A stretch of 64,000 nt of DNA from Sciurus carolinensis (taxonomy: Eukaryota > Chordata > Mammalia > Rodentia > Sciuridae), in contig NC_062216.1 of assembly GCF_902686445.1 (NCBI RefSeq), forward strand, positions 6,035,084 to 6,099,083, read 5' to 3'. Position 1 is the stretch's first letter, and every line of letters begins with the position of its first letter. Both the position numbers and the translations under genes were made by a program. The notes under the pieces are model-generated. The model was given only the letters and a program-made list of their open reading frames with translations. It searched no databases and had not been told where the DNA came from. Positions 16,251-64,000 of this stretch are shown here, in pieces.

Positions 16251-16439
16251 GGATGCAGAAATAAATGAGCTCTGAAATTTTAATACATGTGAAAAATTTA
16301 AATATAGAATGAATTATTTATCACTTGCAGTAGAAAGAAACACTTAAAACTGAAACAGAACTTGAACCTCAGGTATTGGGTTTCTCCACTCTATGAATTG
16401 CTCCAGCAATACTATGAAGAACACCTGGAAAAAGGATGT

Positions 16440-16770: not shown

Positions 16771-16779
16771 AACCAAATT

Positions 16780-29290: not shown

Positions 29291-29329
29291 TAAAGGTTTT
29301 GCCTCAGAAAGATTGACAATGTGGTCCAG

Positions 29330-29640
29330 GGAAGCAGCAAGTACCTAGGATGCAATAATTGGCAAATCAGATACCCTGAGCAGTATCATGTGATGCAAAG
29401 GTGTGAGTCATGAATTAACAGGAAATTGCAGCTGGGGAATTCTGTTGGTTTCAGTAGCTGACTTCTTTTATCGTGTGACCCCTGGGGCAGTATAAAAGTC
29501 CATGGCAGTGACCCTCCCTCACTGCCCCTTCCCCTGGCATCCTGGAGGCTGCATTTCCTCTTGTGCTGTGTCTCCAGCAGTCACCTGTCTGACAATATGC
29601 TGATGGAAAATAGGAGGAGAACAGGCTGCAGGCCTCTTCA
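29330..29640 (+). promoter_or_regulatory. TATA promoter and candidate first exon of FAM90A-like copy C
   Basis: ATTGGCAAATCAG at 29360, GTGTGAGTCATG at 29402 (AP-1-like TGAGTCA), a TTGGTTTCAGTAGCTGA block at 29446, and TATAAAAG at 29491-29498. Downstream are CCCCTGGCATCCTGGAGGC and CAGCAGTCACCTGTCTGACA, as in every unit of the 48-64 kb array and upstream of copy A. The CRE-like site of the array is replaced by ATCGTGTGACC. The candidate donor used elsewhere (CAG|GTGTT) is not evident; CAG|GTGTAAGG at about 29701-29713 is an alternative. AATAAA occurs at about 29769 and 29780. Confidence 0.7.
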
Positions 29641-29799
29641 GATTATGTGTTCTTCAGATTATGGCTGGAAAAATTAGTAGAGTGGAGAAAAGGAAAGAAT
29701 GCAGGTGTAAGGGTTGGACTAAGACCTGACTCATTCTAAACAGTTTGTCCTACTGCTGTCAAGCATAAAATAAACATTGAATAAATTTCTGATGGATTT

Positions 29800-30970: not shown

Positions 30971-30974
30971 TTAT

Positions 30975-31530
30975 TAAACTGTAGTTAAATATTGGGGAGC
31001 CAATACAAGGCAACAAATAGAATCAAGATCATCAGCATTGAGTCTCATAGCAAAGAAAGAGAGTATCTATGTAAATTCATGCATGAAAATCACTTCATGT
31101 GGTAGTAAATGTATCAATACATATTTTCAAGAGAAACTGATGTATTTCTAATTCTCAGGTATATGTATAAGGGAATTACATGCACCCATCTTTCTTGTCA
31201 TGATGATTTCCTAAGTATGGGGAAACACAGTTGTTCTTACCTCTAATGCAGTGTGTGGTGAAGGAAATGAACACATTCTCTAGAATGTGTCCCTGAGTGC
31301 AAATCTAAAATAAGCATTCGTATATGAGGTGTCACGTACATAGTATGGTCCTATTCTAGGACCAGGTAGCTGTACTGATGAGGAAGATACTTCTGGGAAT
31401 GGGAAATCACACTGAAGGAAACAGACTTCCCACTGTTGTTGTGGGGTTTGCTTAACACCACAATGTGAACAGGTCCAAAGTCCATTCCATTTTGCTGTGG
31501 TTATGAATTTGTCCTTTTCTCTATGACTCA
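30975..31530. other. Intron 1 of copy C, no other feature seen
   Basis: Anonymous sequence between the antisense L1 and exon a. It aligns loosely with 47130-47690 reversed, beside copy B. Confidence 0.5.
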
Positions 31531-31531
31531 G

Positions 31532-34464
31532 GATATCCATGTCTCAGTATCTGAGGAAGAAGGATCTGAGGCCAAGAACATGAGACAGTGGGCAGGTCAT
31601 TGCTCACTGCCTCCATCTCAGAGGCTCATTAAAACCCAGAATGAGAAGCAGTAGCAGAAGGGAGCTATGGGGCACAGGACTCCCCCAGCAGAGCATGAAG
31701 AGTCCAAGGTAAGTGGAGGCATGGTTAAGTGGGGAGCCAGGGGCCAGGATGGGTCAGTGCCTGGCTTAAATATTAATGATTTGGCCTCTAAATCTCAACT
31801 GTTCTCTTAGAACCCATGAATACTGGCCTGGGCCGGCTCACAGGTATAGTAGTCCTTTTGTATGATGTGATGAAATACCTTCCCTCCAAATGAGGAACCC
31901 ATTCACCCAAGTTTTTTTCTGTCCTTGAATTGACTCTGTATCATTACCTTTGAGACATTCAAATCTTCCTTCTAGGGCTTCAAACAACAGATGCTTTCTA
32001 AAGAACTTTGGCAATCCTAGCAATCCCACAAATTCCTGGTGCACAGGTCTGAGTCTCTAATATAAAATGATGCTCAACTATGTCCTGAAAATCTATCTTA
32101 ACCTTGACACTGCTGGCAGTGTTTTTGCTGGCTCATGCCAGCTTGTCTTTTTGAACCCACAGGTGAAGTGCAAGGACTGTGGGGACTTTGAGAACACTGC
32201 AAGGAGCAGATGATACCCCATGAAATGCTGACATCAGGCACTGGCCCCACAGTCCTTGGGCCCAAAGGAGGAGAAGGAGAACCAGACAGCAAGGCAGCCT
32301 GAGAATCTCCATGACACAGGAAGCTTTAATCAACCTGAGAGACAGAAGGACCAGGGAGAAAGTTGAGAGATGGGGTAGTTGGGATCCAAACCTTGAGCAC
32401 TGACAGCAAAGGATTGGTGTCCCTCCTGCTATACACATTGTCACAGCCATGTCTAAGGACAGGGTAAGTGGAAAAGAAATAGGAAAGGACACCACATCAC
32501 ATAGCCACACCCTGGATCTCACTCCTTTCCATGCATCCATTAAGGGGCATGTTTCAGGGCCCTCTAGGAACATGAACATAACAGACATAATGGCAATGAG
32601 TCCTTGTGAGCTGACTAAGTGGATAATGAGAAGGACTGCCTGGAGTAAGGGATGGGGTGGGACAAGAGTGAAGGCACAGACCTAGAAATCCTCACAATGG
32701 GTCATACCAAACACTAAGGAAAATTCCCCAAAACTTTTCTTCTTTTGCTGGATTTATCCAAATACCATGGTTTATTCTGCAGGCAATAAGAAGAGCAGAG
32801 GAAGGCTCTGCTCCAGAAATTACCTAGAGGATCCCAGGGCAGGCAGCAACCATATTGGAGGGAAGAGACAGAATCCAGTGTCTATCTGAGGGTGAGTGTC
32901 TCCTTGTGCCTGCTCTTTTTCTCCTCTGGATAATCCTGATTTGTTCCAGTTCCATGTCCCTCTTTCCTGAGTGACTTGCCATCATCCATTAAGGGCAATG
33001 CGACTCAGGCTTGTGTGTATTTATGGTACGGTTTTTCTAATATTTTGCAGGATTCCTTTCATGATTCTCCTGATTTGAAATGGGGGTGCAGATGGACCAA
33101 GTTTATTCCAATGTCTGACATGATGGAATGTACTATGCAGGAATATTCATACTGAAGCTGGGTGAAAACTGTGATCTTTTATTTAAAAACTGCTCAGCCA
33201 CCAAACTGCTCAAAGGAGCATTAGCCATCTACATCACATGGAAGAACACATGAAACATTTTATATCTCTATTAATCAGGCCCAATGTTAAGAATGGGGTA
33301 TTTTCAAATATGCCATGAAATGTGTCCAGTTGATATTGTAGTTGGTGTTGTACTGATCACCAAAGATGTGGAGCTCCCCTTCTACATTACGTGAATGATG
33401 AATTGTGTTATTGTTGAATTTCAAGTCCTGCAGTCCATTTTCTATTTATTTTGTTTTCATTTTTCTTGACAGAGAGCAAGTACAAATGAATGTTTTATGT
33501 GCATTTCTTTACCTCCCTCAAAGCAGCAGGCTACTACCCATCCAAACTCCCTGGAAGAATTCTGTCCTGGGCCCTGTGTTGGAGAGTCAGCTACCTGTCA
33601 AGAACACTGAGGAGAGATCCATCCTCCCTACCACACAACCCTTCCAAAGAAATGAACTTGATTTCTACTCCATCCCTGTGCCCATGAAAGAACAGGAAGC
33701 AGCTACCACAGGCACCAGCCAGCCAGCAGTCAGACTCTGGTCTGAACACTCCCCTCCATGTGAAAGGAGCCCACGAATGCCCAGAGGGTGTATCCTCTAA
33801 CATTGCTCAGACTGCCTCTGAAAGGCATGACATGAGCCAGTGGCTCAATTCTCCACCAACTTCCAGGTGCTCTGATGTTAGCAAACAGCACTGCCTACAA
33901 TCTATAGAATGGAGCGAGGTCCAGGGTCTCACACTCAGCATCAGGGTCTCAGGTAAGGAACATGCCAGGATCCTGTCAAGAGAATCCAGATTGCCCCAAA
34001 GAAACTTAGACTCAATCCAAGATTGACTCCACAGGGGGGCTCTGACTGTCCAGGCTGGGAGGATTTTAAGTCCCTGCAATGTGTGTCAAATACAAGTAGA
34101 CTCAGAACAATAGTGGAAACCCAAGTGACCAGGAAATCTGTACTCCATGGTTCCAGCATGGATCTTCACCAACCACAGAAAAGCTCAGTGCTGAATCCTG
34201 TCCCACGGGCCCCAAGTCCAGTCTTCCAGCAGCCAGCTGTATTACATGACAGTCTCTCAGAAAGGTTTTCAGGAGACTACACTATGACATGGGAGCTCCA
34301 GGTTCATTCCAGCTCCAACTAATCCTTCTCCTACAAAGTCCAATGCTCCAGCTAAGAGCAATCCCTTCCTTGACATATCTGAGGGATACAGCACCAGTGT
34401 GCCAATGAGTTCCTTCTGTGAGGATCCTCAGATGTTCTCCTCTGAGGACAGTGACAAGGAGTGA
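31532..34464 (+). pseudogene. FAM90A: FAM90A-like copy C, pseudogene with near-intact exon layout
   Basis: Exon a: 31532-31708 (177 bp, acceptor CTCAG|G, donor AAG|GTAAGTGG), ATG at 31580, TAG at codon 25 (31652-31654). Exon b: 32163-32362 (200 bp) with a knuckle like that of B, but the donor GT is changed to TT. Exon c: 32783-32891 (109 bp, the same length as in B), containing an in-frame TAA as its second full codon. Exon d: 33473-34464 (992 bp), frameshifted near 33740 and again near 33960-34000, ending in SSEDSDKE and a stop. Exons a-c have exactly the lengths of B. Two nonsense codons, a lost donor and frameshifts make it non-functional. Its arm lies head-to-head with copy A. Confidence 0.87.
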
Positions 34465-36170
34465 GGTAATTCATGACAGGGAAGACTCACCTTCTAGTAT
34501 CACGTGACATGGAATGGAAAGTGGGACTAAGGAGGTAAAAGTGAAGGGAGCGGGCTGTGCATGGAGTACAGGACACTTCTAGCTGTGGGGCAGGTACAAA
34601 TTCTGGAACTGCATACAGTACTAGAACAGACACAGACACTTGCTCTGAATGATGGAAGCTTCTTTGGGGTTTCCAAAGTGATTTGTCAAATGGTCTCATG
34701 AAGGATTACGTATATTGTGCATAGAATGGAAAATGGAGTGGAGATGCTGATGTACCTATTGAACCGTAATGTAAATAGGAGGCTCATGTGATTCTGTTTT
34801 CCTATGACTGCATTCATGGCAACACTGGTTGATCACTGGGACCTGTGTCTTTTCAGCAGTGTCCTGTCTTGTGATGGGAGGGTTTGACAAGACTATGTCA
34901 GTGGAAACAATTTAGGACAGTTTCCTTGTCCTCACTCATTGTGCTCATTTATATTCTTTGCAAATATGTACTTAAAAAATTCATTTTAATCTTAACACAA
35001 TTCTCCCCATTTTTTATTGTGTCCACAGTTTGAGCACTTAGCTGTGCACATCCATTTCAAACCCATTTTTCTCCTCCAAGTTACACTCCCTGTTCTCAGG
35101 TGCTCAATAGGCATGAGTTGGAACCTCTTCAATGTGGCAATTCAGATCATTCATTGTGTTCGATGAAGTATGTGTCACTGTATTTTCCTTTATACCATAA
35201 TAAAGTCATGAAATTACATAGATTTTCCCAGATAAAAGAGTTTTTATCTTCATTTTGAGTCCTGAACCTTGAGGCTTTTCATACTGTCCAGGCGATCCTA
35301 CCATTCAGCAGTTGGGGAATGACTGCCATTTTGAGAAGGAGCACAGGATTCTACATGCATTCACCATGCCTAATCTTTAGAAAAAGGTCTGCCCAGGATC
35401 CACAATGTCTCTGTGACTCTCTAGGATGATTAAGCAGCTGAACTCTCCTTCCTTGCCAATGGAACTGACATTCAATTCCCTATTCAGAGACAGTGTCTGG
35501 GCTGGTAAAGAACTTCTTAATCCAGGCAGGTGACACCTGTGAGAACCCTGGGGAAATGTTTAGCTGCTCATGGCTCCTGGCACCCTCAGGCACTGCCACC
35601 TCTTTCTGAATCTGGGCCCAAATGACTCAGTGATGCTTCTGACCTACAAGGTCAGAACCAGGGATTGCCATCTTCAAAGGTATCAGTACTCTGCATTTAT
35701 TAGTTCCTGACCCACTGTATCTGGTACTACTGATTTGGTGGACACAGGTAGAACACAATCATTTCCTGCCACCATCTCTCTTTACTTCTGAAGATAACAG
35801 TGGGTTCTGGAGCACTCACCATTTACTCCAGAATGATCACTTGATTTCTTAGCCTGAATAATTGGAGATACAAAAAACATGATGTCTGACTAAGGCAGAT
35901 TTTAGTAAACTCAGTCAATTTTTTGAGTAGAGTAGGGTTTTCTGCAATTTTCCTGGTTCCTCAACTATTGTTCAGAGAGTCATGTTTACTGATGACTATC
36001 CTGGGAACCCCATTAGTGTGTGAGTTCATTCACATGCCCTTCTGTGTGAGCAACCTACAGTGACTGATACACATCCAGACAAGTATGGAATGGTACAGAC
36101 TGCTGAGGGATGTGAAGAGAAAGTGTAGAGTGGGCAGAAGAAAGGTTTCTATTACCCACTGTTCTTTCAG
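34465..36170. other. 3' flank of copy C; no gene recognised
   Basis: 34465-34980 resembles the 3' UTR of copy B in reverse (CAGAGGTC-like, TGGGAGGGTTTGAC and GCAAATATGTACTT blocks). The AATAAA that B uses is mutated here; another AATAAA is at 35199-35204. A very degraded SINE-like stretch may lie at about 35250-35390. Nothing else is seen. Confidence 0.5.
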
Positions 36171-44141: not shown

Positions 44142-45134
44142 TCACTCCATGTCACTGTCCTCAGAGGAGGAGGAAACCTGAATGTCCTCATAGAGGCAAC
44201 TCACAGGCACATGGGAACTGTGTCCCTTAGACTTGTCAAGAAAAGGGGCGCTCATAGCAGGAGCATTGGGCTTTGAAGGGGGAGAGGAAGGGGGAGTCAT
44301 AATGAACCTGGAGCTCCAACAGTCATGTTGCAGTCTCATGAAGACCATTCTGAGGGTCTGTCGTGGAACACAGCTGGCCGCTGGAGGATTGGACTTGGTG
44401 CAGGGTGGGACAGGATTCAGGACAGGGCTTTTCCTTGGAGGGTGAAGATCCATGCTGGAACCATGGGGTGGAGTTTTCCTGGTCACGTGGGGTGACACTT
44501 TGAATCTGAGTCCACTTGTAGAAGGCAGACACTGCACAGATGTGTAAACCTCCACGCCTGGACTTTCAGTGCTCCAATATGGAGTCAGGCTGGGGTTGCC
44601 TCTAAGTTTCTTTGGGGCATGCTGGATTGCCTTGACAGGATCCTGGGCATGTCTCTTGATGGGGGCCCTGACACTGAGTGTGGGGACCTGGGCTGCTCTC
44701 CATGCTGTAGCCTGCAAAAGAGCCGTTTGCTCGCATCAGGGACCCTGGCAATGGATTGAGTATGGAGCACCTGGCCCACCACATGGCTTTTAGAGATAGC
44801 CTGGGCCACATTAAGGGAGTCGCCTCTGGCTTTTCATCTGCTCCCTTCACATGGAGGGCAGTGTTCTGCCAGACCACCTTACTGCTGGCTGGCTGGTGCC
44901 AGTGATGGCTACCTCCTGTCCTTTCATGGGCACAGGGATGGAGTAGAAATCATGTTCATTTCTTCGGAAGAGTTTCCCTGTAGGGAGGATGGGTCTCTCA
45001 TCAGTGTTCTTGACAGGTGGCTGACTCTCCAATGCAGGTCCCAGGACAGAACTCTTGCAGGGTATTTGGATGGGCGGTGGCCTGCTGGTTTGCTGGATGA
45101 CAAGACATGCACATAAAGCATTCATTAGTACTTG
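44142..45134 (-). CDS. FAM90A: Copy B exon d (last coding exon)
   Basis: Acceptor TTTCTTGACAG|CAAGTAC. The frame starts QVLMNALC, runs 95 codons to a TGA at 44847 and is disturbed until about 44720. It is then open for 192 codons (44142-44717), through TLRMVFMRLQHDCWSSRF and the acidic SSSSEDSDME end. The exon length of 993 nt is a multiple of three, so start and end share a frame. The out-of-frame piece includes VAQAISKSHVVGQ, which matches the family. Confidence 0.85.
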
Positions 45135-45718: not shown

Positions 45719-45827
45719 CCTCAGAGAGGAACTGGATTCTTTCCTTTCCTCCCAATTTGGTTGCTGCCTCCCCTGAAGTCTCCTAGGAATTCTTTGGAGC
45801 AGAGACTTCCTTGGCTGCTCTTCTTGC
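45719..45827 (-). CDS. FAM90A: Copy B exon c
   Basis: Acceptor TTGTTCTGCAG|GCAAG, donor AGG|GTGAGTATC; 109 bp that complete the split AGG codon from exon b and add 36 codons (QEEQPRKSLLQRIP to SSSSLR). It matches FAM90A residues just after the knuckle region. Open in B; copy C has a TAA here. Confidence 0.85.
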
Positions 45828-46248: not shown

Positions 46249-46448
46249 CTTTGCCCCTGGTCTTTCCTTCTCTCAAGCTGCTTAAAGCTTTCTGTGTCAT
46301 GGAGAGTCTCAAGCTGCCTTGGTGTCTGGTTCTCCTTCTCCTTCTTTGGGCCCAAGTGTTGTGGGGCCAGTGCCCCATCCCAGCACTTCATGGGGCATCT
46401 TCTGCTCCTTGAAGTGTGTCCAAAGGCCCCACAGTCCTTGCACTTGAC
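46249..46448 (-). CDS. FAM90A: Copy B exon b, zinc knuckle
   Basis: Acceptor TTTTGCACCCACAG|GTC, donor AAAG|GTGAGTAAT; 200 bp, open throughout. It encodes VKCKDCGAFGHTSRSRRCPM and then KCWDGALAPQHLGPKKEKEN. The Cys-x2-Cys-x4-His-x6-Cys ligands fall at about residues 46, 49, 54 and 61 of the predicted protein, the family's diagnostic knuckle. Confidence 0.92.
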
Positions 46449-46901: not shown

Positions 46902-47078
46902 CTGGGGGTTTTCCTCCTCTAGTGGGGTAGCCCTCTGCCCCACAGCTCTCCTCTGCTGGAGCTTATCAGTCTGGGTTTTAATGAACCTTTGGGATGGAGG
47001 CTGTGAGGAACGACCTTCCCACTGCCTCATGTTCTTGATGTCAGGTCTTTCTTCCTCAGAGGCTGAGATTTGGGTGTC
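46902..47078 (-). CDS. FAM90A: Copy B exon a, start codon exon
   Basis: Acceptor CTCTCCATTACTCAG|GAC, donor CCCCAG|GTAAGTGG; 177 bp. The ATG at 47028-47030 is chosen because the 43 codons that follow (MRQWEGRS to LEEENPQ) match the basic FAM90A N-terminus in length and in the RLIKTQ...QRRA...R.P..EE spacing. The frame is open upstream of this ATG to the acceptor, but without a better start. Confidence 0.85.
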
Positions 47079-47690: not shown

Positions 47691-48345
47691 TATTTAGGCT
47701 CTAAATATCCATGGGATATATTAAGCCTGACATCAATGTCCAACAGTTACAAAACACTTGAAAACAGTATCATTCATCTATTCTGATCACAATGGAATAA
47801 AACTGCAAATCAGCAGCAAAAGAAAGAATAGGAGTTATCAACTAGGTCAAAATGGAAAAACTCCCCTTTGACAAAATCTGAGACTCTTGAAAAGTGTGGA
47901 GGGAATTTTACAAATTGCTTCAATCACAGGAAAATCAAAAAGCAACACATCAAACTTGGGGCTTACAGCAAGAGCAGTGCTGAGCAGTACCTTCATGAGC
48001 TGCCTACATTGCAAAAACTTTCAGAAGTCCCAAATTAGTAATCTACTTTGTTATCTCCAGTTCATAAAAAAGGAACAAGGCTATGAATGACCAAATCAGA
48101 ATCAGAAGAAGGTAATAAATATCACAGTACAAATGAAAAAAGGACACAAAGGACAGTGATCATGAAACAGAGACCACATTTTGGAAAAGATAACTGAGCT
48201 AGAAAAAAAAAATCTCAATGAAATCAGCTGCAGATCAATATCCTTGCTGAAAACAGATGCAGAATTTCATGAGAAAAGTCTGACCAACTGCATTCAAAAG
48301 CATATTTTATATGTAGTACACTAGTGATCACATTAGTTTTTTCCT
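47690..48345 (+). mobile_element. Old L1 ORF2 fragment, antisense to copy B
   Basis: Carries the endonuclease SDHNG-type block (TTCTGATCACAATGGAATAA at 47782) and then the reverse-transcriptase N-terminus (AAACAGATGCAGAATTTCATGAG and on). It continues without a break into the L1-derived part of the first array unit, so the array was amplified from this L1 plus promoter stretch. Confidence 0.75.
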
Positions 48346-48862
48346 TGGGTGAGTAAGTTTGGTTTGACATAAGGCAATCAGTAAGTGTATTACTGCACAT
48401 AATTGTCAGGAGGACAAAAATCCCATGAAGATCTCCTCACATGCCCAAAACCAGTTGCCAGAGTCCAGCACCCATTCGTGTTTACAAACCAGAAAAACTA
48501 GGAATAGAGGGAACTGACATCAGAAGCCCACAGGCTATAGCCGATGAATCCAAGGGCAATATTATCCAGGAGAAGAACCGAGAGCATTTTATCTGAACAC
48601 AGAAACAGGACAAGCATGATCACAAACCACACTCCTCTTCGATCAAAACCTCAAACTATAGCCATGAAAATCAAGCAAAAGATGGAAATTAAGTATCCTG
48701 AGTAGACAGAAACAGGGAAAGAGAACGCAAGATGGCCCCGTTGGCTGAGGATAGGATCCTGTATTTAGAAGACCCACAAACTCAGCCAGAAGACCTATAG
48801 AGCTCATAATGAATGAGGCAAGCACTGGAGACAAGGTCAACAACCCAAATCCATCACCAAGA

Positions 48863-48868
48863 TTTATT
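48863..48868 (-). terminator. AATAAA signal of array unit 1 (repeated in most units)
   Basis: GCACAAAATAAATCTTG on the minus strand, about 280 bp downstream of the unit 1 TATA box. Most other units keep the same hexamer at the same offset (for example 50092-50097, 52541-52546, 53771-53776); unit 3 has a changed sequence (TTTTTTTGGGC). Confidence 0.5.
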
Positions 48869-48990
48869 TTGTGCCCCTCAGTAGAAAGACACACAATTTA
48901 AAATGAAACAATCCTTAGCCCAGCACTGAAACCTCCTGCATTCCTTTTCCTCCAATCTATTAATATTTCCAGTAAAAAACTGAAAAACAC

Positions 48991-49350
48991 CTGAAAAGGG
49001 AAATCAATATGAGGTCCCACTGTTCTGCTCTTTTCTGTGAGAAGGTTGTCAGGCAGGTGGCTTCCAGAGGTACAACAGGGCAGGAGATGCTGCCTCCAGG
49101 ATGCCAGGGGAAGGACTAGGGAGGACTTGTCATGGTCCTGGACTTTTATACTGCCCAAGAGTGACGTGAACCATAACGCGGTGAGCTATTGTAACCAACG
49201 GAATCTCCCAGGGGCCATTTCCTGTAAATCCGTGACTCACACCATTGCACCACATGATTCTACCCGGGGTCACTAATTTGCCAATCATTGGGTCCTAGAT
49301 ACTTGCTACTTCCCTGGACCACTTAGTAAATCTTTCTGTGGCAAAAATCT
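48991..49350 (-). promoter_or_regulatory. Array unit 1: TATA promoter and candidate non-coding first exon next to copy B
   Basis: Read on the minus strand: CCAATGATTGGCAAAT (about 49275-49290), TGAGTCA in GTGTGAGTCACGG (about 49232-49244), a CCGTTGGTTACAATAGCTCA block, TCACGTCAC (CRE-like, about 49160-49168), then TATAAAAG at 49143-49150. The presumed start is at about 49115, followed by CCCCTGGCATCCTGGAGGC and a candidate donor CAG|GTGTTTTTC with the exon edge at 48991, giving a first exon of about 125 nt. Splicing to exon a at 47078 would make a copy B transcript. Transcription is inferred, not shown. Confidence 0.6.
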
Positions 49351-52300
49351 TTAAGATTATGTTCAGATTTGACAGGTGGAATGACTAAAATGACTTAGTA
49401 ACCTGACAAATGCAAGATACTCTAAATGGCATTTGGTACTTAATAATTTTGCTTCCTGTGTTCTGAATGATTAAATATCTTTTCTACCTAAGGAAGCCTC
49501 AGTTAAAATTCAAGGATTTCAGTAATTCTATTATTTGTAAGATACACATATGTTTACTACCTGGGGATGCAATTTGGTTGGACATAAGGAAATCAACAAA
49601 TGTATTTCTGCACATATTCATCAGCAGGATAAATATCGCTTGATTATCTCCATGCATGGCCTCCAAAAAGATGCCAGACTCCATCACCCATTTGTGCTTA
49701 CAACACCAGAAAATCTAGGGATAGAGGAAACTGACCCTAGCAGCCCACAGTTTATACCTCACAAATTCAAGGGCAACATTATCCAGGGGAAGAACTGAGA
49801 GCATTTTATCTGAATGCAGAAACAAGACAAGTGTGCCCAAATTCCACACTCCTCTTTAACCTAAATCTTGAGACTGAATCCAAGAAAATCAAGCAAAAGT
49901 TGGAAATTAAGTTTTCTGAGTAGACAGCAAAAGGGAAAGAGAAATCAGATTGGCCCCGATTCCTGAGGACAGGGTCCTGTATTTAGAAGACCCACAAACT
50001 AAGCCAGAAGACTTATAGAGCTCATAATAAATTAGGCAAAGAAGGGCAGAAAACACCAACACTGATAATCCATCAGCCATTTACAGAAAGATTTATTTTG
50101 TGCCCCTCAGTAAAAAGACACATAATTTAAAAAGAAACAATCCTTAGTCCAGCACTGAAAACTCTGGCTTCCTTTTCCTCCAATCTATTAATATTTCCAG
50201 CCACAGTCTGAAAAACACCTGGAAAACGGAAACCAATTTGAGGTCCCACTGTTCTGCTCTTTTCTGTGAGAAGTTTCTCAGACAGGTGGCTTCTGGAGGC
50301 ACAACAGGGAAGGAGATGCAGCCTCCAGGATGCCAGGGGAAGGACTAGTGAGGAATTGTCATGGTCCTGGACTTTTATACTGCCTCAGAGTGACGTGATC
50401 CAAAACGTGAGCTACTGAAAACAACAGAATCTCCCAGGGGCCATTTCCTGTAAATCCGTGACTCACACCATTACATCACATGACTCTACTCAGGGTCACT
50501 GATTTGCCAATCATTGGATCCTAGATACTTGCTGTTTCCCTGGAACACTTTGTCAATCTTTCTGTGGCGAAATCTCTTTAGCATTATGCTGAGATTTGAC
50601 AGGTGGAATAACTATAAGGACTTAGGAACCTGACAAATGCAAGATACTCTAAATGGCATTTGGTACTTACAAATATTGCTTCCTCTGTTCTGAATGATTC
50701 TTTGTCTTGTCTTTCTTCCTAAGGAAGCCTTAGTTAACAGTCAAGGATTTCAAAAATTCTATTATTTTTTAGAAAAACATATGTTTACACCTGGGGATGC
50801 AATTTGGTTGGACATAAGGAAATTAATAAATGTATTTCTGAACATAAACGTGAGGAGACAAATATCGCTTTTTTATCTCATGAATGCTCCCCAAAAGATG
50901 CCATAGTTCACAACCCATTTGAGCTTACAACACCAGAAAATCTAGGGATAGAGGAAACTAACCCTAGCAGCCCACAAGTTATACCTCACAAATCCAAGGG
51001 CAACATTATCCAAGGGAAGAACCGAGACAATTTTATCTGAATGCAGAAACAGGAAAAGCGTGCCCACATTCCACACTCCTCTTTAACCTAAATCTTGAAA
51101 CTGAATCCTTGAAAATCAAGCAAAAATTGGAAATTAAGTATTCTTAGTAGATGGCAACAGGGAAAGAGAACTCAGATTGGACCCAATTGCTGAGGAAAGG
51201 GTCCTGTATTTAGAAGACCCAAAAAAAGCCAGAAGTCCTATAGAGCTCATAATAAATTAGGCAAAGAGGTGGAGAAAAGAGCAACACCCCAAATCAACCA
51301 GCCCTTTACAGCAAGATTTTTTTGGGCCCCTCACTAAAAAGACACACAATTTAAAAAGAAACAATCCTGAGCCCAGCACTTAAACCTCTGGCATTCCTTT
51401 TCCTCCAATCTATTAATATTTCCAGCAAAAATCTGAAAAACACCTGAAAAGGGAAAACAACCTGAGATCCCTGTGTTCTGCTATTTTCTGTGAGAAGGTT
51501 GTCAGACATGTGGCTGCTGGAGGCACAATAGTGAAGGAAATGCAGCCTCCAGGATGCCAGGGGAAAGACTATTGAGGACTTGTCATGGTCCTGGACTTTT
51601 ATACTGCCCCAGAGAGACTTGAACCAAAACGTGAGCTACTGAGACCAATGGAATCTCCCAGGGGACACTTTCTATAAATTCCGTGACTCACACCATTACA
51701 CCACATGACTACTCAGGCTCCCTGATTTGCCAATGATTGGGTCCTAGATACTTGCTGTTTCCCTGGACCACTTTGTCAATCTTTCTGTGGCAAAACTCTT
51801 TAGGATTATGTTCAGATTGACAGGTGGAATAACTATAAGGATTAGGAACCTGACAAATGCAAGATACTCTAAATGGCATTTGGTACTTACTAATTTTGCT
51901 TCCTCTGTTCTGAATGATTTTTTGCCTTGTCTTTCTACCTGGGGAAGCCTTAGTTAAAAGTCAAGGATTTCAATAATTCTATTATTTGTTAGATACACAT
52001 ATGTTTACACCTGGGGATGCAATTTGGTTAGACATAAGGAAATTAATAAATGTATTTCTGCACAAAATTGTGAGCAGAACAAATATCACTTGTTTTTCTC
52101 ATGCATGCCCCACCAAAAGATGCAGGAGTTCATCGCCCATTTGAGCTTACAACACCATAAAATCTAGGGATAGAGGAAACTGACCCTAGCAGCCCACAGT
52201 TTATAGCTCACAAATTCAAGGGCAACATTATCCAGGGGAAGAACAGAGAGCATTTTATCTGAATACAGAAAAAGGACAAGCGTACCCACATTCCACACTC

Positions 52301-55300
52301 CTCTTTAACATAAATCTTGAAACTGTATCCTTGAAAATCAAGCAAAAATTGGATAGTAAGTATTCTGAGTAGTCGGCAACAGGCAAAGAGAACTCAGATT
52401 GGACCCGATTGCTAAGGACTGGGTCCTGCATTTAGAAGACCCACAAACTAAGTCAGAAGACCTATAGAGCTCATAATAAATTAGGCAAAGAAGTGCAGAT
52501 AATACCAACACCCCAAATCAACCAGCCATTTATAGCAAGATTTATTTTGTGCCCCTCAGTAAAAGGACACACAATATAAAATGAAACAATCCTTAGCTCA
52601 GGACTGAAACCTCCGGCATTCCTTTTCCTCCAATCTTTTAATATTTCCAGCAAAAATCTGAAAAATACCTGGAAAAGGGAAAACAACCTGAGATCCCTCT
52701 GTTCTGCTCTTTTCTGTGAGAAGGTTGTGAGACAGGTGGCTGCTGGAGACACAACAGTGCAGGAGATGCTGCCTCCAGGAAGCCAGGGGAAGGACTAGTG
52801 AGGACTTGTTATGGTCTGGACTTTTATACTGTCCCAGGTTGACGTGATCCAAAACGTGAGCTACTGAAACCAATGGAATCTCCTAGGGGCCATTTCCTGT
52901 AAATCCGTGACTCACACCATTATACAACATGACTCTTCTCTGGGTCCCTGATTTGCCAATGATTGGGTCCTAGATACTTGCTGTTTCCCTGGACCACTTT
53001 GTCAATCTTTCTGTGACAAAACTCTTTAGGATTATGTTCAGATTTGGCAGGTGGAATGACAATAAGGACTTCGGAACCTGACAAATGCAAGATACTCTAA
53101 ATGTCATTTGGTACTCACTAATTTTGCTTCCTGTGTTCTGAATGATTATATGTCTTATCTTTCTACCTACGGAAGCCTTAGTTAAAACTCAAGGATTTCA
53201 ATAATTCTATTATTTGTTAGATACACATATGTTTACACCTGGGGATGCAATTTGGTTGGACATAAGGAAATCAATAAATGTATTTCTGCACATAATCGTC
53301 AGCAGAACGAATAACACTTGATTATCTCCTTTTATGGCCTTCCAAAAGATGGCAGACTCCATCACCCATTTTTGCTTCAACACCAGAAAATCTAGGGATA
53401 GAGGAAACTGACCCCAGCAGTGCACAAGTTATAGCTCACAAATCCAAGGGCAACATTATCCAGGGGAAGAACAGAGACCATTTTATGTAAATACAGTAAC
53501 AGGACAAGTGTACCCACATTTCACACTCCTCTTTAACCTAAACCTTGAAACCGTATCCATGAAAATCAAGCAAAAGTTGGAAATTCAGTATTCTGTGTAG
53601 ACAGCAACAGGGAAAGAGAACTCAGATTGGCCCTTTGTGCTGAGGACAGGATCCTGTATTTAGAAGATACACAAAATAAGCCAGAAGACCTATAGAGCTC
53701 ATAATAAATTAGGCACAGAAGTGCAGATGATACCAACACCCCAAATCTACCAGCCATCTAAAGCAAGGTTTATTTTGTGCCCCTCAGTAGAAAGACAAAC
53801 AATTTAAAAAGAAACAATCCTTAGCCCAGCACTGAAACCTCTGCCATTCCTTTTCCTCCAATCTATTAATATTTACAGCAACTATCTGTAAAACACCTGG
53901 AAAAGGGTAACCAAATTGAGATCCCACTTTTCTGTTCTTTTCTGTGAGAAGGTTGACAGACAGGTGGCTGCTGGAGGCACAACAGGGAAGGTGATGCAGC
54001 TTCCAGGATTCCAGGGGAAGGACTAATGTGGACTTTTCATGGTCCTGGACTTTTATACTGCCCCAGAGTGATGTGAACCAAAATGTGAGCTACTGAAACC
54101 AATGGAATCTCCCAGGGGCCATTTCCTGTAAATCCGTGACTCACACCATTACACCACATGACTCTAGTCAGTGTTCCTGATTTGCAAATCATTGGGACCT
54201 AGATACTTGCTGTTTCGCTTGCCAATTTTGTCAATATTTTTGTGGCAAAAACTCTTTAGGATTATGTTCAGATTTGACAGGTGGAATAACTATAAGGACT
54301 TAGGAACCTGAAAAATGCAAGATACTCTAAATGGCATTTGATACTTACTAATTTTTCTTCCTCTGTTCTGAATGATTTTTTGCCTTGTCTTTCTACCTAA
54401 GGAAGCCTTAGTTAAAACTCAAGGCTTTCAATAGTTCTATTATTTGTTAGATACACATATGTTTACACCTGGGGATGCAATTTGGTTGGACATAAGGAAA
54501 TTAATAAATGTATTTCTGCACATAATCATAAGCAGAACAAATATTGCTTGTTTATCTCATGCATGGCTCCCCAAAAGATGCCAGACTCCATCACTCACTT
54601 GTGCTTACAACACCAGAAAATCTAGGGATACAGGAAACTGACCCTATCAGCCCACAGTTTATAGCTCACAAATCCAAGGGCAACATTATCCAGGGGAAGA
54701 ACTGAGAGCATTTTATCTGAATGCAGAAACAGGACAAGCCTGCCTACATTCCACAATCCTCTTTAACCTAAATCTTGAAACTGAATCCATGAAAATCAAG
54801 GAAAAGATGGAAATTCAGTATTCTGTATAGACAGCAACCAGGAAAGAGAACTCAGATTGGCCCCGATTCCTAAGGACAGGGTCCTGTATTTAGAAGAATC
54901 ACAAACTAATCCAGAAGACCTATAGAGCTCATAATAAATTTGGCAAAGAAGTGCAGATAAGACCAACACCCAAAATCCACCAGCCAATTACAACAAGATT
55001 TACTTTGAGCCTCTCAGTAAAAACACACAGAGTTTAAAAAGAAACAATACTTAGCCCAGCACTAAAACCTCTGGCATTCCTTATCCTCCAATCTATTAAT
55101 ATTTCCAGCAACAATCTGAAAAACACCTGGAAAAGGGAAACCAATTTGAAGTCCCACTGTTCTGCTCTTTTCTGCGAGAAGTTTGTCAGACAGGTGGCTT
55201 CTGGAGGCACAACAGGGAAGGAGATGCAGCTTCCAGGATGCCAGGGGAAGGACTAGTGAGGACTCTTCATGGTCCTGGACTTTTATACTGCCCAGAGTGA

Positions 55301-57719
55301 CGTGATCCAAAACGTGAACTACGGAAAGCAACGGCAATTCCCAGGAGCCATTTCCTGTAAATCTGTGATTGACTCACACCGTTACACCACATGACTCTAC
55401 TCAGGGTCCTTGATTTTACAATTATTGGGTCCTAGATACTTACTGTTTCCCTGGACCACTTTGTCAATCTTTTTGTGGCAAAAACTGTTTAGGATTATGT
55501 TCAGATTTGACAATTAGAAAGACTATAAGGACTTAGGATCATGACAAATGCAAGATGCACTAAATGGCATTTGGTACTTACTAATTTTGCTTCCTCTGTT
55601 CTGAATGGTTATTTTTCTTGTCTTTCTACCTAAGGAAGCCTTAGTTAAAAGTCAAGGATTTCAATAATTCTATTATTTGTTAGATACACATATGTTTACT
55701 ACCTGGGGATGCAATTTGGTTCAACATAAGGAAATTAATAAATGTATTTCTGCACATAATCATGAGCTGGACAAATATTGCTTGTTTATCTTGTGCATGA
55801 CCCCCTAAAAGATGCCAGAGTTCATCACCCTTTTGAGCTTACAACACCAGAAAATCTAGGGATAGAGGAAACTGACCCTAGTAGCCCACAGTTTATAGCT
55901 CACAAATCCAAGGGCAACATTATCCAGGGGAAGAACTGAGAGCATTTCATCTGAATGCAGAAACAGGAGAAGCCTGCCTACATTCCACAATCCTCTTTAA
56001 CCTAAATCTTGAAACTGAATCCATGAAAATCAAGGAAAAGTTGGAAATTAAGTATTCTGTGTAGACAGCAACCAGGAAAGAGAACTCAGACTGGACCTTT
56101 GTGCTGAGGACAGGATCCTGTAATTAGAAGATACACAAAATAAGCCAGAAGACTTATACAGCTCATTATAAATTAGGTAAAGAAGTGCAGATAAGACCAA
56201 CACCCCAAATCCACCAGACTTTTCAGCAAGATTCATTTTGTGCCCCTCAGTAGAAAGACACACATTTTAAAATGAAGCAATCCTTAGCCCAGGACTGAAA
56301 CCTCCAGAATTCCTTTTCCTCCATTCGATTAATATTTCCAGAAAAATCTGAAAATCACCTGGAAAAGGAAAAGCAACTTGAGGTCCCACTGTTCTGCTCT
56401 TTTCTGTGAGAAAGTTGTCAGACACGTGGTTTCTGGAAGCACAAAAGGGAAGGAGATGCAGCCTCCAGGATGCCAGGGGAAGGACTAGGGAGGACTTGTC
56501 ATGGTTCTGGACTTTTATACAGCCCCATAATGACGTGATCCAAAACATGAGCTACTGAAACCAATGGAATCTCCCAGGGGCCATTTCCAGGAAATCCGTG
56601 ACTCACACCGTTACACCAAATGACTCTACTCAGGGTCCGTGATTAGCCAATCATTGGGTCGTAGATACTTGCTGTTTCCCTGGACCACATTGTCAATCAT
56701 TCTGTGGCAAAAACTCTTTAGGATTATGTTCAGATTTCACAGGTAGAATGACTATAAGGACTTAGGAAAGTGACAAATGCAAGGTACTCTAAATGGCATT
56801 TGTTCTTTACTAAATTTGCTTCCTCTGATCTGAATGATTATATGTCTTGTCTTTCTACCTAAGGAAGCCTTAGTTAAAAGTCAAGGATTTCAATAATTCT
56901 ATTATTTGTAAGATACACATATGTTTACTACCTGGGGATGCAATTTGGTTGGACATAAGGAAATGAACAAATGTTTTTCTGCACATAATCATCAGCAGGA
57001 AGAATATCGCTTGAATATCTCCTTGCAGGGCTTCCCCAAAAATACCACACTCCATCACCCATTTGTGCTTACAACACCAGAAAATCTAGGGATAGAGGAA
57101 ACTGACCCTAGCAGCCCACAGGTTTTAGCTCACACATCCAAGGGCAACATTATCCAGGGGAAGAACTGAGACCATTTTATCTGAATGCAGAAACAGGACA
57201 AGCGTGCCCACATTCCACACTCCTCTTTAACATAAATCTTGAAACTGTATCCATGAAAATTAAGGAGAAGGTGGAAACTAAGTTTTCTGAATAGACAGCA
57301 ACTGTGAAAGAGAACTCAGATTGGCCCCGATTGCTGAGGACAGGGTACTGTATTTAGCAGACCCACAACCTCAGCCAGAAGTCCTATAGAGATCATAATA
57401 AATTAGGCAAAGAAGTGGAGATAAGACCAACACTCCAAATCCACGAGCCATTTACAGCAAGATATATTTTGCGCCTCTCAGTAAAAAGACACACAATATA
57501 AAATGAAACAATCCTCATCCCAGCACTGAAACCTCCGGCATTCCTTTTCCTCCATTCGATTAATATTTCCAGCAACAATCTGAAAAACACCTGGAGAAGG
57601 GAAAACAACCTGAGGTCCCTCAGTTCTGCTCTCTTCTGTGAGAAGTTTGTCAGACAAGGGACTCCTGGAGGCACAAAAGTGCAAGAGATGCAGCCTCCAG
57701 CATACCAGGGGAAGGACTA

Positions 57720-57800
57720 GTGAGGACTTGTCATGGTCGTGGACTATTATACTGCCCCAGATTGACTTGATCCAAAATATGAGCTACTGAAACCAATGGA
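57720..57800 (-). promoter_or_regulatory. Array unit 8: altered TATA box
   Basis: The TATA box reads TATAATAG (57744-57751) instead of TATAAAAG, and the CRE-like site has become TCAAGTCAA. Probably a weakened unit. Confidence 0.6.
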
Positions 57801-58944
57801 ATCTCCCAGGGGCCATTTCCTGTAAATCCGTGACTCACACCGTTACACCACATGACTCCACTCAGGGTCCCTGATTTGCCAAACATTGGGTCCTAGAACT
57901 TGCTGTTGTTTGGACCACTTTGTCAATCTTTCTGTGGCAATAACTCTTTAGGATTATGTTCAGATTTGACAGGTGGAATCACTATAAAGACTTAGGAACC
58001 TATCAAATCAAGGTACTCTAAATGGCATTTGTTATTTACTAAATTTGCTTCCTCTGTTCGGATGATTATATGTCTTGTGTTTCTACCTAAGGAAGCCTTA
58101 GTTAAAAGACAAGGATTTGAATAATACTATTATTTGTAGGATACACATATGTTTACTATCTGGGGATGCAATTTGGTTGGACATAAGGAAATTAATAAAT
58201 GTATTTCTGCACATAATCATCAGCAGGATGAATATCGCTTGAATATCTCCTTGCAGGGCTTCCCCAAAAATGCCACACTCCATCACCAATTTGTGCTTAC
58301 AACACCAGAAAATCTAGGGATAGAGGAAACTGACCCTAGCAGCCCACAGGTTATTGTTCACACATCCAAGGGCAACATTATCTAGGGGAAGAACCAAGAC
58401 CATTTTATCTGAATGCAGAAACAGGACAAGAGTGCCCACATTCCACACTCCTCTTTAACCTAAATCTTGAAACTGAATCCATGAAATCAAGGAGAAGATG
58501 GAAATTAAGTTTTCTGTGTAGACAGCAACTGTGAAAGAGAACTCAGATTGGCCCCGATTGCTGAGGACAGGGTCCTGTATTTAGAAGACCCACAACCTTG
58601 GCCTGAAGTCCTATAGAGATCATAATAAATTAGGCAAAGAAGTGGAGATAAGACCAACACCCCAAATCAACCAGCCATTTACAGCAAGATTTATTTTGCG
58701 CCCCTCAGTAAAAAGACACACAATATAAAATGAAACAATCCTGAGCCCAGCACTGAAACCTCCGGCATTCCTTTTCCTCCATTTGATTAATATTTACAGC
58801 AACAATCTGAGAAACACCTGGAAAAGGAAAAACAACCTGAGATCCCTCTGTTCTGCTCTTTTCTGTGAGAAGTTTGTCAGACAGGTATCTGCTGGAGACA
58901 CAATAGGGTAGGAGATGCACCCTGCAGGATGCCAGGGGAAGGAC

Positions 58945-59020
58945 TAGTGAGGACTTGTCATGGTCCTGGAGTATTATACTGCCCTAGGGTATCGTGATCC
59001 AAAACGTGAGCTACTGAAAC
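58945..59020 (-). promoter_or_regulatory. Array unit 9: altered TATA box
   Basis: The TATA box reads TATAATAC (58971-58978), and the CRE-like site has become TCACGATAC. The shared T in units 8 and 9 suggests they descend from one variant or exchanged sequence. Confidence 0.6.
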
Positions 59021-62000
59021 CAACAAAATCTCCCAGGGGCCATTTCCTGTAATCCTTGACTTACACCATTACAGCAAATGACTCTACTCAGAGTCCCTGA
59101 TTTGCCAAGCATTGGGTCCTAGATACTTGTTGTTTCCCTGGAACACTTTGTCAATCTTTCTGTGGAAAAACTTTAGGATTATGTTCAGATTGACAGGTGG
59201 AATGACTGTAAGTACTTAGGAACCTGACAAATGCAAGGTACTCTAAATGGCATTTGGTACTGACTAATTTGCTTCCTGTGTTCTGAATGATTATATATCT
59301 TTTCTTTCTATCTAAGGAAGCCTTAGTTAAAATTCAAGATATCAATAATTCTCATATTGGTTACATACACATATGTTTACTACATGGGGATGTAATTTCG
59401 TTGGACATAAGGAAATCAACAAATGTATTTCTGCACATATTCGTCAGCAGGATGAATATCGCTTGATTAGCTCTATGCATGGCCTTCGAAAAGATGCCAG
59501 ACTCCATCACCCATTTGTGCTTACAACACCAGAAAATCTAGGGATAGAGCAAACTGACCCTAGCAATCCACAGTTGATAGCTCACAAATCCAAGGGCAAC
59601 ATTATCCAGTTGAAGAACTGAGAGCATTTTATCTGGATGCAGAATCAAGACAAGCGTGCCCACATTCTACACTCCTCTTTAACCTATATCTTGAAACTGA
59701 ATCCAAGAAAATAAAGCAAAAATTAGAATTTAAGTTTTCTGAGTAGACAGCAACAGGGAAAGAGAAATCAGATTGGCCCCGATTCCTGAAGACAGAGTCC
59801 TGCATTTAGAAGACCCACAAACTAAGCCACAAGACCTATAGAGCTCATAATAAATTAGGCAAAGAAGTGCAGATAAGACCAACACCCCAAATCCACTAGA
59901 CGTTTACAGCAAGATTTATTTTGCGCCCCTCAGTAAAAAGACACACAATTATAAAATGAAACAATCCTTAGCCCAGGACTGAAAACCTCCGGCATTCCTT
60001 TTCCTACAATCTATTAATATTTCCAGCAACAATCTGAAAACACCTGGAAAAGGGAAACAACCTTGAGTCCCTATGTTCTGCTCTTTTCTGTGAGAAAGTT
60101 GTCAGACAGGTGGCTGCTGGAGACACAACAGGGCAGGAGATGCAGCCTCCAGGATGCCAGGGGAAGGACTAGTGAGGACTTGTCATGGTCCTGGACTTTT
60201 ATACTGCCCAGGGTGATGTGATCCGAAACATGAGCTACTGAAACCAATGGAATCTCCGAGAGGCCATTTCCTGGAAATCTGTGACTCGCACTGTTACACC
60301 ACATGACTCTACTCAGGGTGCCTGATTTGCCAATCATTGGGCTCCTAGATACTTGCCTTTTTTCCTGGACCACTTTGTCAATCTTTCTGTGGCAAAAATT
60401 CTTTAGGATTGTGTTCAGATTTGACAGGTGGAAAGACTGAGGACTTAGGAACCTGACAAATGCAAGAAACTTTAAATGACATTTGGTACTTACTAATTTT
60501 GCTTCCTCAGTTCTGAATGATTATTTGTCTTGTCTTTCTACCTAAGGAAGGCTTAGTTAAAAGTCAAGGACTTCAATAATTCTATTATTTGGAAGATACA
60601 TATATGTTTACTACCTGGGCATGAAATTTGGTTGGACTTAAGGAAATCAACAAAGGTATTTCTGCACATTATCGTCAGCAGGACGAATATCGCTTGATTT
60701 TCTCTTGCATGGCCTACCAAAAGATGCTAGACTCCAACAACCATTTGTGCTTACAACACCAGAAAATCTAGGGATAGAGGAAACTGACCCTAGCAACCCA
60801 CAGTTTATAGCTCACAAATTCAAGGGCAACGTTATCCAGGGGAAGAACTGAGAGCATTTCATCTGAATGCAGAAACAGGAAAAGCATGCCTACATTCCAC
60901 ACTCCTCTTTACCATAAATCTTGAAACTGTGTCCATGAAAATCAAGCAAACAGGGGAAATTAAGTGTTCTGTGTAGACAGCAACAGGGAAGGAGATCTCA
61001 GATTGGCCCCGTTTGCTGAGGACAGGATCCTGTATTTAGAAGACCCAAAAACTCAGCCAGAAGTCCTATAGAGCTCATAATAAATTAGGCAAAGAAGTGG
61101 AGATAAGATTAACACCCCAAATCCACCAACCATTTTCAGTAAGATTCATTTTGTCCCCCTCAGTAGAAAGACACACAATTTAAAATGAAACAATCCTTAG
61201 CCCAGCACTGAAACCTCTGGCATTCCTTTTCCTCCAATCTATTAATATTTCCAGCAACAATCTGAAAAACACCTGGAAAAGGGAAACCAATTTGAATTCA
61301 CAATGTTCTGCTCTTTCTGCGAAAAGTTTGTCAGACAGGTGGCTTCTTGAGGCGCAACAGGGAAGGAGATGCAGCCTCCAGGATGCCAGGGGAAGGACTA
61401 GTGAGGACTTGCCATGGTCCTGGACTTTTATACTGCCCCAGAGTGATGTGATCGAAAACGTGAGCTACTGAAACCAATGGAATCTCACAGGGGCCATTTT
61501 CTGGAAATCCCTAACTCACACCGTTACACCACATGACTCTACTCAGTGTCCCTGATTTGTTAAACATTGGGCCCTATACTTTCTGTTTCTCTGGACCACT
61601 TTGTCAATCTTTCTGTGGCAAAAACTCTTTAGGATTATATGCAGATTTAACAGTTGGAATGACTATAAAGACTTAGGAAACTGACAAATGCAAGATACTC
61701 TAAATGGCATTTGGTACTTACTAATTTTGCTTCCTGTGTTCTGAATGATTATAAATCTTGTCTTTCTACCTAAGGAAGCCTTAGTTAACAGTCAAGGATT
61801 TCAATAATTCTATTATTTGTTAGATACACATATGTTTACTACGTGGGGATGCAATTTGGTGACATAAGGAAATTAATAAATGTATTTCTGCACATAATTG
61901 TGAGCAGAACAAATATCGCATGTTTATCTCCTTGCATGCCCACCCAAAAGATGCCAGAGTTCATCACCCATTTGAGCTTACAACACCATAAAATCTAGGG

Positions 62001-64000
62001 ATAGAGGAAAATGACCCTAGCAGCCAACAGGTTATACCTCACAAATCCAAGGGCAACATTATCCAGGGGAAGAAACAGAGAGCATTTTATCTGAATGCAG
62101 AAACAGGAAAAGCATGCCCACATTCCACACTCCTCTTTCACCTAAATCTTGAAACTGAATCCTTGAAAATTAAGCAAAAATTGGAAATTAAGTATTCTTA
62201 GTAGACAGCAACAGGGAAAGAGAACTCAGATTGGATCCAATTGTTGAGGACAGTGTCCTGTATTTAGAAGACCCACAAACTAAGCCAGAAGAACTATAGA
62301 GCTCATAATAAATTAGGCAAAGAAGTGGAGATTAGACCAACACCCGCAAATCAACCAGCCGTTTACAGTAAGATTTCTTTTGCGACCCTCAGTAAAAAGA
62401 CACACAATTTAAAAAGAAACAATCCATAGACCAGCACTGAAACCTCTGGCATTCCTTTTCCTCCAATCTTTTAATATTTCCAGCAAAATCTGAAAAACAC
62501 CTGAAAAAGGGAAAACAACCTGAGATCCCTCTGCTCTGCTCTTTTCTGGGAGAAGGTTGTCAGACAAATGGCTTCTGGAGGCACAATAGTGAAGGAGATG
62601 CAGCCCCCAGGATGCCAGGGGAAGGAGTAGTGAGGACTTGTCATGGTCTTTGACTTTTATACTGCCCCAGAGTGACATGAACCAAAACGTGAGCTACTGA
62701 AACCAACGGAGTCTCCCAGGGGCTATTTCCTGTAAATCCGTGTCTCACACCATTGCACCACATCACTCTACTCAGGCTCCCTGATTTGCCAATGATTAGG
62801 TCCTAGATACTTGCTGTTTCCCTGGACCACTTTGTCAATCTTTCTTTGGAAAACCTCTTTAGGATTATGTTCAGATTGACAGGTGGAATAACTATAAGGA
62901 TTAGGAACCTGACTAATGCAAGATACTCTAAATGGCATTTGGTACTTACTACCTTTGCTTCCTTGGTTCGGAATGATTTTTTGCCTTGTCTTTCTACCTG
63001 GGTAAGCCTTAGTTAAAACTCAAGGATTTCAATAATTCTATTATTTGTTAGATACACATATGTTTACACATGGGGATGCAATCTGGTTAGACATAAGGAA
63101 ATTAATAAATGTATTTCTGCACAAAATCATGAGCAGAACAAATATCACTTGTTTATCTCATGCATGCCACATCAAAAGATGCCAGAGTTCATCAGCGATT
63201 TGAGCTTACAACACCAGAAAATCTAGGGATAGAGGAAACCTACCCTAGCAGCCAACAGGTTATAGCTCACTAATCCAAGGGTAACATTATCCAGGGGAAG
63301 AACCGAGAATATTTTATCTGAATGCAGAAACAGGCAAGCGTACCTACATTCCACACTCCTCTTTAACCTATATCTTGAAACTGTATCCTTGAAAGACAAG
63401 AGAAGATGGAAATTAAGTATTCTGAGTAGACAGCAACAGGTAACGAGAACTCAGAATGGCTCCAATTTCTGAGGACAGGATCCTCTATTTAGAAGACTTA
63501 CAAACTCGGTCAGAATTCCTATAGAGATCATAATAAATTAGGCAAAGAAGTGGAGATAAGACCAACACCCCAAATCCACGAGCCATTTACAGCAAGATTT
63601 GTTTTGTGCCCCTCAGTAGAAAGACACACAATTTAAAATGAAACAATCCTTAGACCAGCACTGAAACCTCCTGCATTCCTTTTCCTCCAATTTAATAATA
63701 TTTCCAGCAACAATCTGAAAAACACCTGGAAAAGGGAAAACAATCTGAGGTCCCACTGTTCCGCTCTTTTCTGTGAGAAGTTTGTCAGACAAGTGACTTC
63801 TGGAGGCACAACAGGGCACGATATGAAGCCTCCAGGATGCCAGGGGAAGGACTAGTGAGGACTTGTCATGGTCCTGTACTTTTATACTGCCCCAGGGTGA
63901 CGTGATCCAAAACGTGAGCTACAGAAACCAATGGAATCTCCCATGGGCCATTTCCTGTAAATCCGTGACTCACACCGTTACATCACATGACTCTACTCAG

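Follow-up and report, generated by a model that had tools for sequence, protein, structure and literature searches.

Several tandem arrays of gene-derived or gene-associated sequence have been described. The units of the D4Z4 macrosatellite contain the DUX4 gene, and Bosch et al. in 2007 reportedly described whole-gene tandem arrays of FAM90A in primates. As outlined in PMC1215480, the promoter repeats of the ribosomal DNA (rDNA) intergenic spacer enhance ribosomal RNA (rRNA) transcription, and the 853-bp tandem repeats of maize b1 have demonstrated regulatory and paramutation activity, as outlined in PMC3798267. Here, we analyzed a stretch of 64,000 nucleotides of Sciurus carolinensis (NC_062216.1, positions 6,035,084 to 6,099,083 of assembly GCF_902686445.1; hereafter the window), which holds three FAM90A-like copies (A, B, and C) and, upstream of copy B, a tandem array of units of about 1,228 bp. 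The array is probably a macrosatellite derived from gene sequence that adjoins the 5′ end of a decaying FAM90A-like copy, and it appears unconstrained as far as our tests can see.

The self-comparison of the window proposed in a first-pass annotation of this DNA was performed by BLAST, and the results showed a series of direct repeats offset by multiples of about 1,228 bp between 48,358 and 64,000. A single-unit probe matched 12 full copies of 1,215-1,234 bp and one copy of about 920 bp ending at the window end, and the spacing between matched junctions was about 1,220-1,233 bp (the junction of units 9 and 10 was not caught by the pattern). The units run head to tail from 48,329 to the window edge (12.75 units), and the array extends past position 64,000, probably with further units. 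The annotation had claimed at least 13 amplified units starting at 48345, all oriented toward copy B. The array and the orientation were confirmed, since all units lie on the minus strand and face copy B, but the count was corrected to 12 full units and one partial unit rather than 13 full ones, and the gene-proximal edge, judged on the junction sequence, was placed at 48,329. Pairwise identity between units was 83.8-92.8%, and no two units were nearly identical. The array is missing from the Tandem Repeats Finder list because the maximum period there was 500. The TATAAAAG box was perfect in 11 of the 13 units, the exceptions being unit 8 (TATAATAG) and unit 9 (TATAATAC). No long reading frame was common to all 12 full units, in which the longest frame per unit was 44-149 codons, and no RNA family matched in the window at the gathering score. 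The array and its TATA boxes are as follows.

48329..64000, minus strand: tandem array of ~1,228-bp units, 12 full and one partial (self-BLAST, unit probe, identities, and junctions)
48329..49549, minus strand: unit 1, gene-proximal, in the ancestral position, mosaic (B/C alignment continuous through unit 1)
49143..49150, minus strand: TATAAAAG box of unit 1
50379, 51603, 52828, 54057, 55287, and 56519, minus strand: first base of the box in units 2 to 7
57751 (TATAAT), 58978 (TATAAT), 60203, 61432, 62661, and 63886, minus strand: first base of the box in units 8 to 13

The unit is a composite in which about 720 bp of gene 5′ region are joined to an antisense fragment of an ancient L1 ORF2, which spans about 510 bp and makes up about 42% of the unit. 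This L1 half (positions 723-1231 of the unit consensus) matched the two long L1 copies of the window in blastn with 62% identity over 532 columns (E=6e-36 for the consensus), and at copy C it was found by tblastn (E=6e-20), with stops. The L1 match of unit 1 continues to 48,189, outside the unit, and in both B and C the match goes beyond the unit into intron 1, while intron 1 of copy A holds a different, barely overlapping portion of antisense L1. The L1 fragment was evidently already present in intron 1 before the array formed. Self-BLAST further gave an unbroken alignment of C (29,101-35,004) to B (49,549-43,622), which indicates that unit 1 occupies the place of the single-copy sequence of C. 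As the first-pass annotation had stated, the TATA block occurs once beside each of the other copies: copy C carries the whole unit once, with its TATA from 29,491 on the plus strand, and copy A holds the promoter half once, on the minus strand, aligning with the units over that half alone. Identity to the units is about 75% for C and about 57% for A.

48329..48853, minus strand: L1 ORF2-derived half of unit 1, antisense to the promoter (blastn)
29101..30295, plus strand: the unit as present once at copy C, beginning and ending with ATGTG
16356..16770, minus strand: promoter counterpart at copy A, with TATAAAAG and CAGGTGTTC retained and the L1 half not alignable

The unit ends within intron 1, and exons 2-5 lie outside it. 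A whole-gene array was therefore ruled out, which agrees with the annotated derivation of the array from the 5′ end of the gene. Because the unit joins the gene front end to a piece of intronic L1, its boundaries ignore gene structure. Its collinearity with the single-copy gene flank at C, and of its promoter half also with that at A, points to an origin in the FAM90A-like gene family. The ATGTG motif stands at both ends of the C segment (29,101-29,105 and 30,291-30,295), and the array junctions read ATATGTG where shown. We also considered a long terminal repeat (LTR) as the source of the promoter block. A and C share homology for about 640 bp further upstream than the start of the C unit, and beyond the promoter we found no remainder of the intronic L1, as an insertion into L1 would leave; these comparisons do not support an LTR origin, although one is conceivable. 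A 17-base TATA pattern occurred in nine stretches of viral contigs, which we took as chance.

Comparison with the array consensus showed that unit 1 is a mosaic, differing at 44 of 711 positions (6.2%) in its promoter half and at 78 of 500 (15.6%) in its L1 half (p=1.2e-7, with the breakpoint chosen from the data). None of the 11 other full units had a comparable step (smallest p=0.042, unit 4), and the promoter half of unit 1 grouped with the homogenised array. At the L1-half positions where unit 1 departs from the consensus, copy C shared the base of unit 1 in 32 cases, the consensus base in 38, and neither in 8; the corresponding numbers in the promoter half were 9, 26, and 9. The other units thus share derived changes in the L1 half that are missing in unit 1, which suggests that homogenisation postdates the duplication and reached approximately the promoter/L1 border of unit 1. 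Units 2-12 each differed from the consensus by 5.5-7.6% in substitutions, and the tree of units 2-13 was a near-star with few well-supported nodes (units 8 and 9, 100; units 3 and 12, 99). No neighbour effect was detected among units 2-12 (Mantel r=+0.29, in the wrong direction). A near-star without neighbour effect is what would be seen if homogenisation had ceased, or a burst had occurred, and the units had since drifted independently. Head-to-tail units of about 1 kb or more with signs of exchange, by which a macrosatellite is recognised, were found here in the array and in the mosaic unit 1.

From these observations, the following course of events can be proposed. In the ancestral FAM90A-like copies, a TATA-type 5′ region would have preceded an old antisense L1 fragment lying in intron 1. 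At copy B, a segment of about 1.2 kb, reaching from the 5′ region into the beginning of the L1, would then have been duplicated in tandem. Microhomology-mediated duplication would suit the ATGTG ends seen at C, although five bases can match by chance, and we therefore only infer this mechanism. The segment may then have multiplied to 13 or more copies, which unequal exchange or conversion would have homogenised as far as the promoter half of unit 1, as its mosaic structure suggests. Homogenisation presumably ceased afterwards, and the units would have diverged as a near-star.

To describe the gene that the array adjoins, the exons of copy B and the extents of the other two copies are given here.

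46902..47078, minus strand: copy B exon 2, with start codon, open
46249..46448, minus strand: copy B exon 3, zinc knuckle PF15288 (zf-CCHC_6; E=2.4e-24, 85.4 bits, cut-off 22)
45719..45827, minus strand: copy B exon 4, open
44142..45092, minus strand: copy B exon 5, reading frame broken
28458..35453, plus strand: copy C, FAM90A-like pseudogene with in-frame stops in exons 2, 3, and 4 and frameshifts in exon 5
11287..17627, minus strand: copy A, FAM90A-like pseudogene with stops and frameshifts

The C-terminal open reading frame (ORF) of copy B (44145-44735) matched the Sciurus carolinensis 'Protein FAM90A1' (P0001) at 88% over 93% of the 197-aa query, in a search with 3 matches among 25 candidates. 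Of 222 candidates, 10 matched exons 2-5a of copy B; three belong to Sciurus carolinensis and two to Marmota monax, and the others come from carnivores (three), a gerbil, and a gibbon (one each). The nearest named proteins to copy B are squirrel FAM90A, and by these similarities and the zinc knuckle all three copies are FAM90A-like, as annotated. None of the three has an intact full reading frame: copy B is frameshifted in exon 5, where the Sciurus proteins P0001 and P0005 are open, and exon 3 of copy C, the zinc-knuckle exon, has two in-frame stops. The dN/dS ratio (nonsynonymous to synonymous substitution rates) between B and C was 0.80 (bootstrap 0.56-1.15; 307 codons, stop codons dropped). 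The frameshift of copy B, the antisense L1 share of the unit, and the grouping of the promoter half of unit 1 with the array had been missed by the first-pass annotation. The orientation of the copies alternates (A minus, C plus, B minus). An inverted similarity of 65% between 24500-24940 and 28052-27602 suggests that A and C form a head-to-head pair with common upstream sequence. Three distinct FAM90A-like proteins from Sciurus carolinensis were encountered (P0001, P0004, and P0005), and the family is therefore probably multi-copy in this species.

To evaluate constraint on the putative promoter, which is taken as such by homology of the TATA block to A and C, we compared conservation along the unit. 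Mismatch to the consensus ranged from 4.5 to 11.1% per 50 bp, with 7.5% in the TATA window (units 2-12, gaps counted), and no dip in mismatch was found at the promoter in 50-bp windows across the unit. For each element, we determined what fraction of the windows of equal length was conserved at least as well among units 1-12. The values for TATAAAAG (0.19) and CAGGTGTTT (0.14) are unremarkable, and the CRE-like (cAMP response element-like) site, CCAAT, and AATAAA reached 0.89, 0.76, and 0.68, respectively. The CRE-like site was intact in four of the 13 units. By these measures, the units look unconstrained.

We used the same unit consensus to evaluate the annotated proposal of first exons ending at a candidate CAG/GTGTT donor, and a working first exon was not supported. 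CAG/GTGTTT scored 5.0 bits, compared to 10.0-12.7 for the own donors of copy B, and ranked fifth among the 32 positive-scoring GT sites of the consensus unit. The site is degraded to TATGTGTTC at copy C and kept as CAGGTGTTC at copy A. By eye, the pyrimidine-rich stretch before the donor of unit 1 resembles an acceptor too, and the acceptor context of exon 2 at copy B is good.

48988..48993, minus strand: candidate donor CAG/GTG of unit 1, weak

From the promoter to exon 2, no strong donor common to A, B, and C was found; the best site common to all three lies upstream of the TATA. The best donor common to B and C alone, at 48,441 (7.7 bits) and 30,183 (7.9 bits), falls within the L1-derived part of unit 1; in the array consensus, it is outside the 14 best. 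Since the donor is weak, degraded at C, and set in an acceptor-like context, the first exon is a guess.

The substitution pattern of the array was then analyzed. CpG transitions were found at 42 of 208 sites, versus 267 of 6422 at other C/G sites, a roughly five-fold faster decay that suggests germline methylation. The ratio of A>G to T>C rates was 0.94 (confidence interval 0.67-1.32), and thus no mark of germline transcription was visible, within the limited power of this comparison. Neither the substitution pattern nor the conservation profile gave any sign of the promoter, dosage, or small-RNA function suggested in the annotation. The transition/transversion ratio was 0.73 over unit pairs versus 1.47 between the two long L1 copies, and 0.74 over the 872 non-CpG changes among units, which is almost no transition bias; it was low in both halves of the unit (0.76 and 0.68). 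In clean contexts, the ratio was 0.55 for the units, compared with 1.34 for the long L1 copies, 0.91 between the gene bodies of B and C, and 0.74 in the upstream sequence of A and C; low ratios thus characterise the entire locus, and the array has the lowest. Of the indels among units, 58 of 68 were 1 bp long; the corresponding figures are 22 of 43 for B and C and 23 of 33 for the pair of long L1 copies. Against the consensus, insertions in the 15.6 kb of array did not exceed 4 bp and deletions did not exceed 10 bp, whereas L1 and retroviral insertions are common in the remainder of the window.

Several results weigh against a decaying, unselected macrosatellite. The GTATAA core is unbroken in the alignment of all 13 units, and so is CAG/GT (13/13). 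Only 0.09 of same-length windows were at least as conserved as CAGGTG alone (units 1-12), and for the 10-mer just below the TATA (CTTCCCCTGG, consensus position 462) this fraction was 0.008, uncorrected for the many windows. Copy B is open for 227 codons and has an intact zinc knuckle, while C and A carry stops. Redundant promoters could also function without conservation of each unit, which weakens the conservation tests. Of the six strand comparisons, which were uncorrected, two lean: C>A/G>T was 0.67 (p=0.01) and A>T/T>A was 1.35 (p=0.053) over all changes, neither being significant in singletons. The low transition/transversion ratio is not accounted for by this reading. The own changes of unit 1 in the L1 half (38) are fewer than a constant rate predicts from those shared by the array (32) plus the own changes of each unit; the counts do not fit one constant rate, so that partial conversion or rate differences are likely. 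Nevertheless, there is no clear sign of selection on the promoter parts, and copy B is frameshifted, and therefore the array is most likely not a selected promoter bank. Stray transcription from the intact TATA boxes is possible.

An alternative that we regard as unlikely is a working multi-promoter element, in which transcripts of the units would splice to exon 2 of copy B (47,078) and give more output or alternative untranslated first exons. The near-uniform TATA box facing B, the retention of the TATA block at A and C despite their low identity to the units, the good acceptor context of exon 2, and the enhancement of transcription by promoter duplications upstream of rRNA genes, as outlined in PMC1215480, would all suit such an element. 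It is opposed by the weak donor that is degraded at C, the better B/C donor outside the top 14 of the array consensus, the flat conservation profile with few intact CRE-like sites, the frameshift in copy B, and the lack of A>G/T>C asymmetry. A bolder form of this idea, which we rate as unlikely as well, is an RNA polymerase II (Pol II) counterpart of ribosomal spacer promoters in a mammal: one gene copy would be fed by at least a dozen tandem TATA promoters, each before antisense L1, whose capped germline or early-embryo transcripts would act as alternative first exons or silencing RNA, in a redundant set with no single unit conserved.

It is also quite unlikely that the array is a source of noncoding or silencing RNA, in which its transcripts, including the L1-antisense half, would silence related FAM90A or L1 copies, or that it is heterochromatic. 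The presence of antisense L1 ORF2 sequence below the TATA box is consistent with this, as is the CpG decay, and the upstream tandem repeats of maize b1 act via RNA-mediated silencing, as outlined in PMC3798267; however, an L1 piece with about 62% identity to the two long L1 copies of the window is probably too distant for small-RNA targeting of those copies, and both a frame long in all units and the A>G/T>C asymmetry are missing. We doubt still more that the array is the local edge of a large or dispersed satellite adjoining FAM90A by chance: it runs off the window and behaves like a satellite, but the unit is collinear with the single-copy gene flank at C, and its promoter half with that at A. 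An assembly artefact, which might be read into the odd substitution spectrum and the excess of 1-bp indels, is hardly credible given a maximum unit identity of 92.8%, supported unit groups, the CpG excess as a biological signature, a ratio that is low outside the array too, and a unit that is single-copy at C.

In the remainder of the window, Pfam searches of 19 ORFs and exons (9 + 10) gave only PF15288, RNase_H, RVT_thumb, IN_DBD_C, and rve above the cut-off. A degraded endogenous retrovirus lies between C and B (38579-42383, minus strand), with pieces of reverse transcriptase thumb, RNase H, and integrase by Pfam and, judged only by eye, ORFs resembling env. The two long L1 copies, at 742-6012 (plus strand) and 17675-22907 (minus strand), are 83% identical; the second starts about 50 bp past the end of the similarity of copy A to copy C, and seven telomere-like GGGTTA repeats (5764-5805) stand near the 3′ end of the first. 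Elsewhere among mammals, beta-defensin, USP17, and olfactory receptor genes are found in the vicinity of FAM90A genes, as outlined in PMC2874809. None of these was recognised among the 19 ORFs and exons given to Pfam, which is not a full window search.

Gene families usually grow by whole-gene copying, whereas here only the gene front end and a piece of intronic L1 multiplied. The intermediates stand in one window, namely the single-copy forms at A and C, the transitional unit 1, and the radiated array, which makes the locus a good natural example of macrosatellite birth from a promoter region. If other squirrels have the array, it could be tested whether repeated promoters can outlive the gene they served. 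Among the papers listed in our literature searches, we recognised no description of such an array, judged by titles and the beginnings of abstracts.

Compared to the known systems, the squirrel array resembles D4Z4 in its kilobase-scale tandem units of gene-derived content, but D4Z4 units contain DUX4, whereas no frame is long in all squirrel units. With the primate FAM90A arrays, it shares the gene family and local amplification beside family members; those arrays reportedly repeat the whole gene, and the squirrel array repeats the 5′ region and intronic L1 alone. The rDNA spacer promoters, as outlined in PMC1215480, serve rRNA genes, whereas the squirrel array adjoins one frameshifted Pol II copy and its units look unconstrained; in both cases, the own promoter of a gene, here a putative one, is copied upstream in the same orientation, and if the units were shown to fire, the array could be placed beside the ribosomal spacer promoters as their Pol II relative. 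The maize b1 repeats, as outlined in PMC3798267, have demonstrated activity, whereas any activity of the squirrel array is putative; in both cases, however, a non-coding sequence of about 1 kb is tandemly repeated upstream of one gene to which it is tied.

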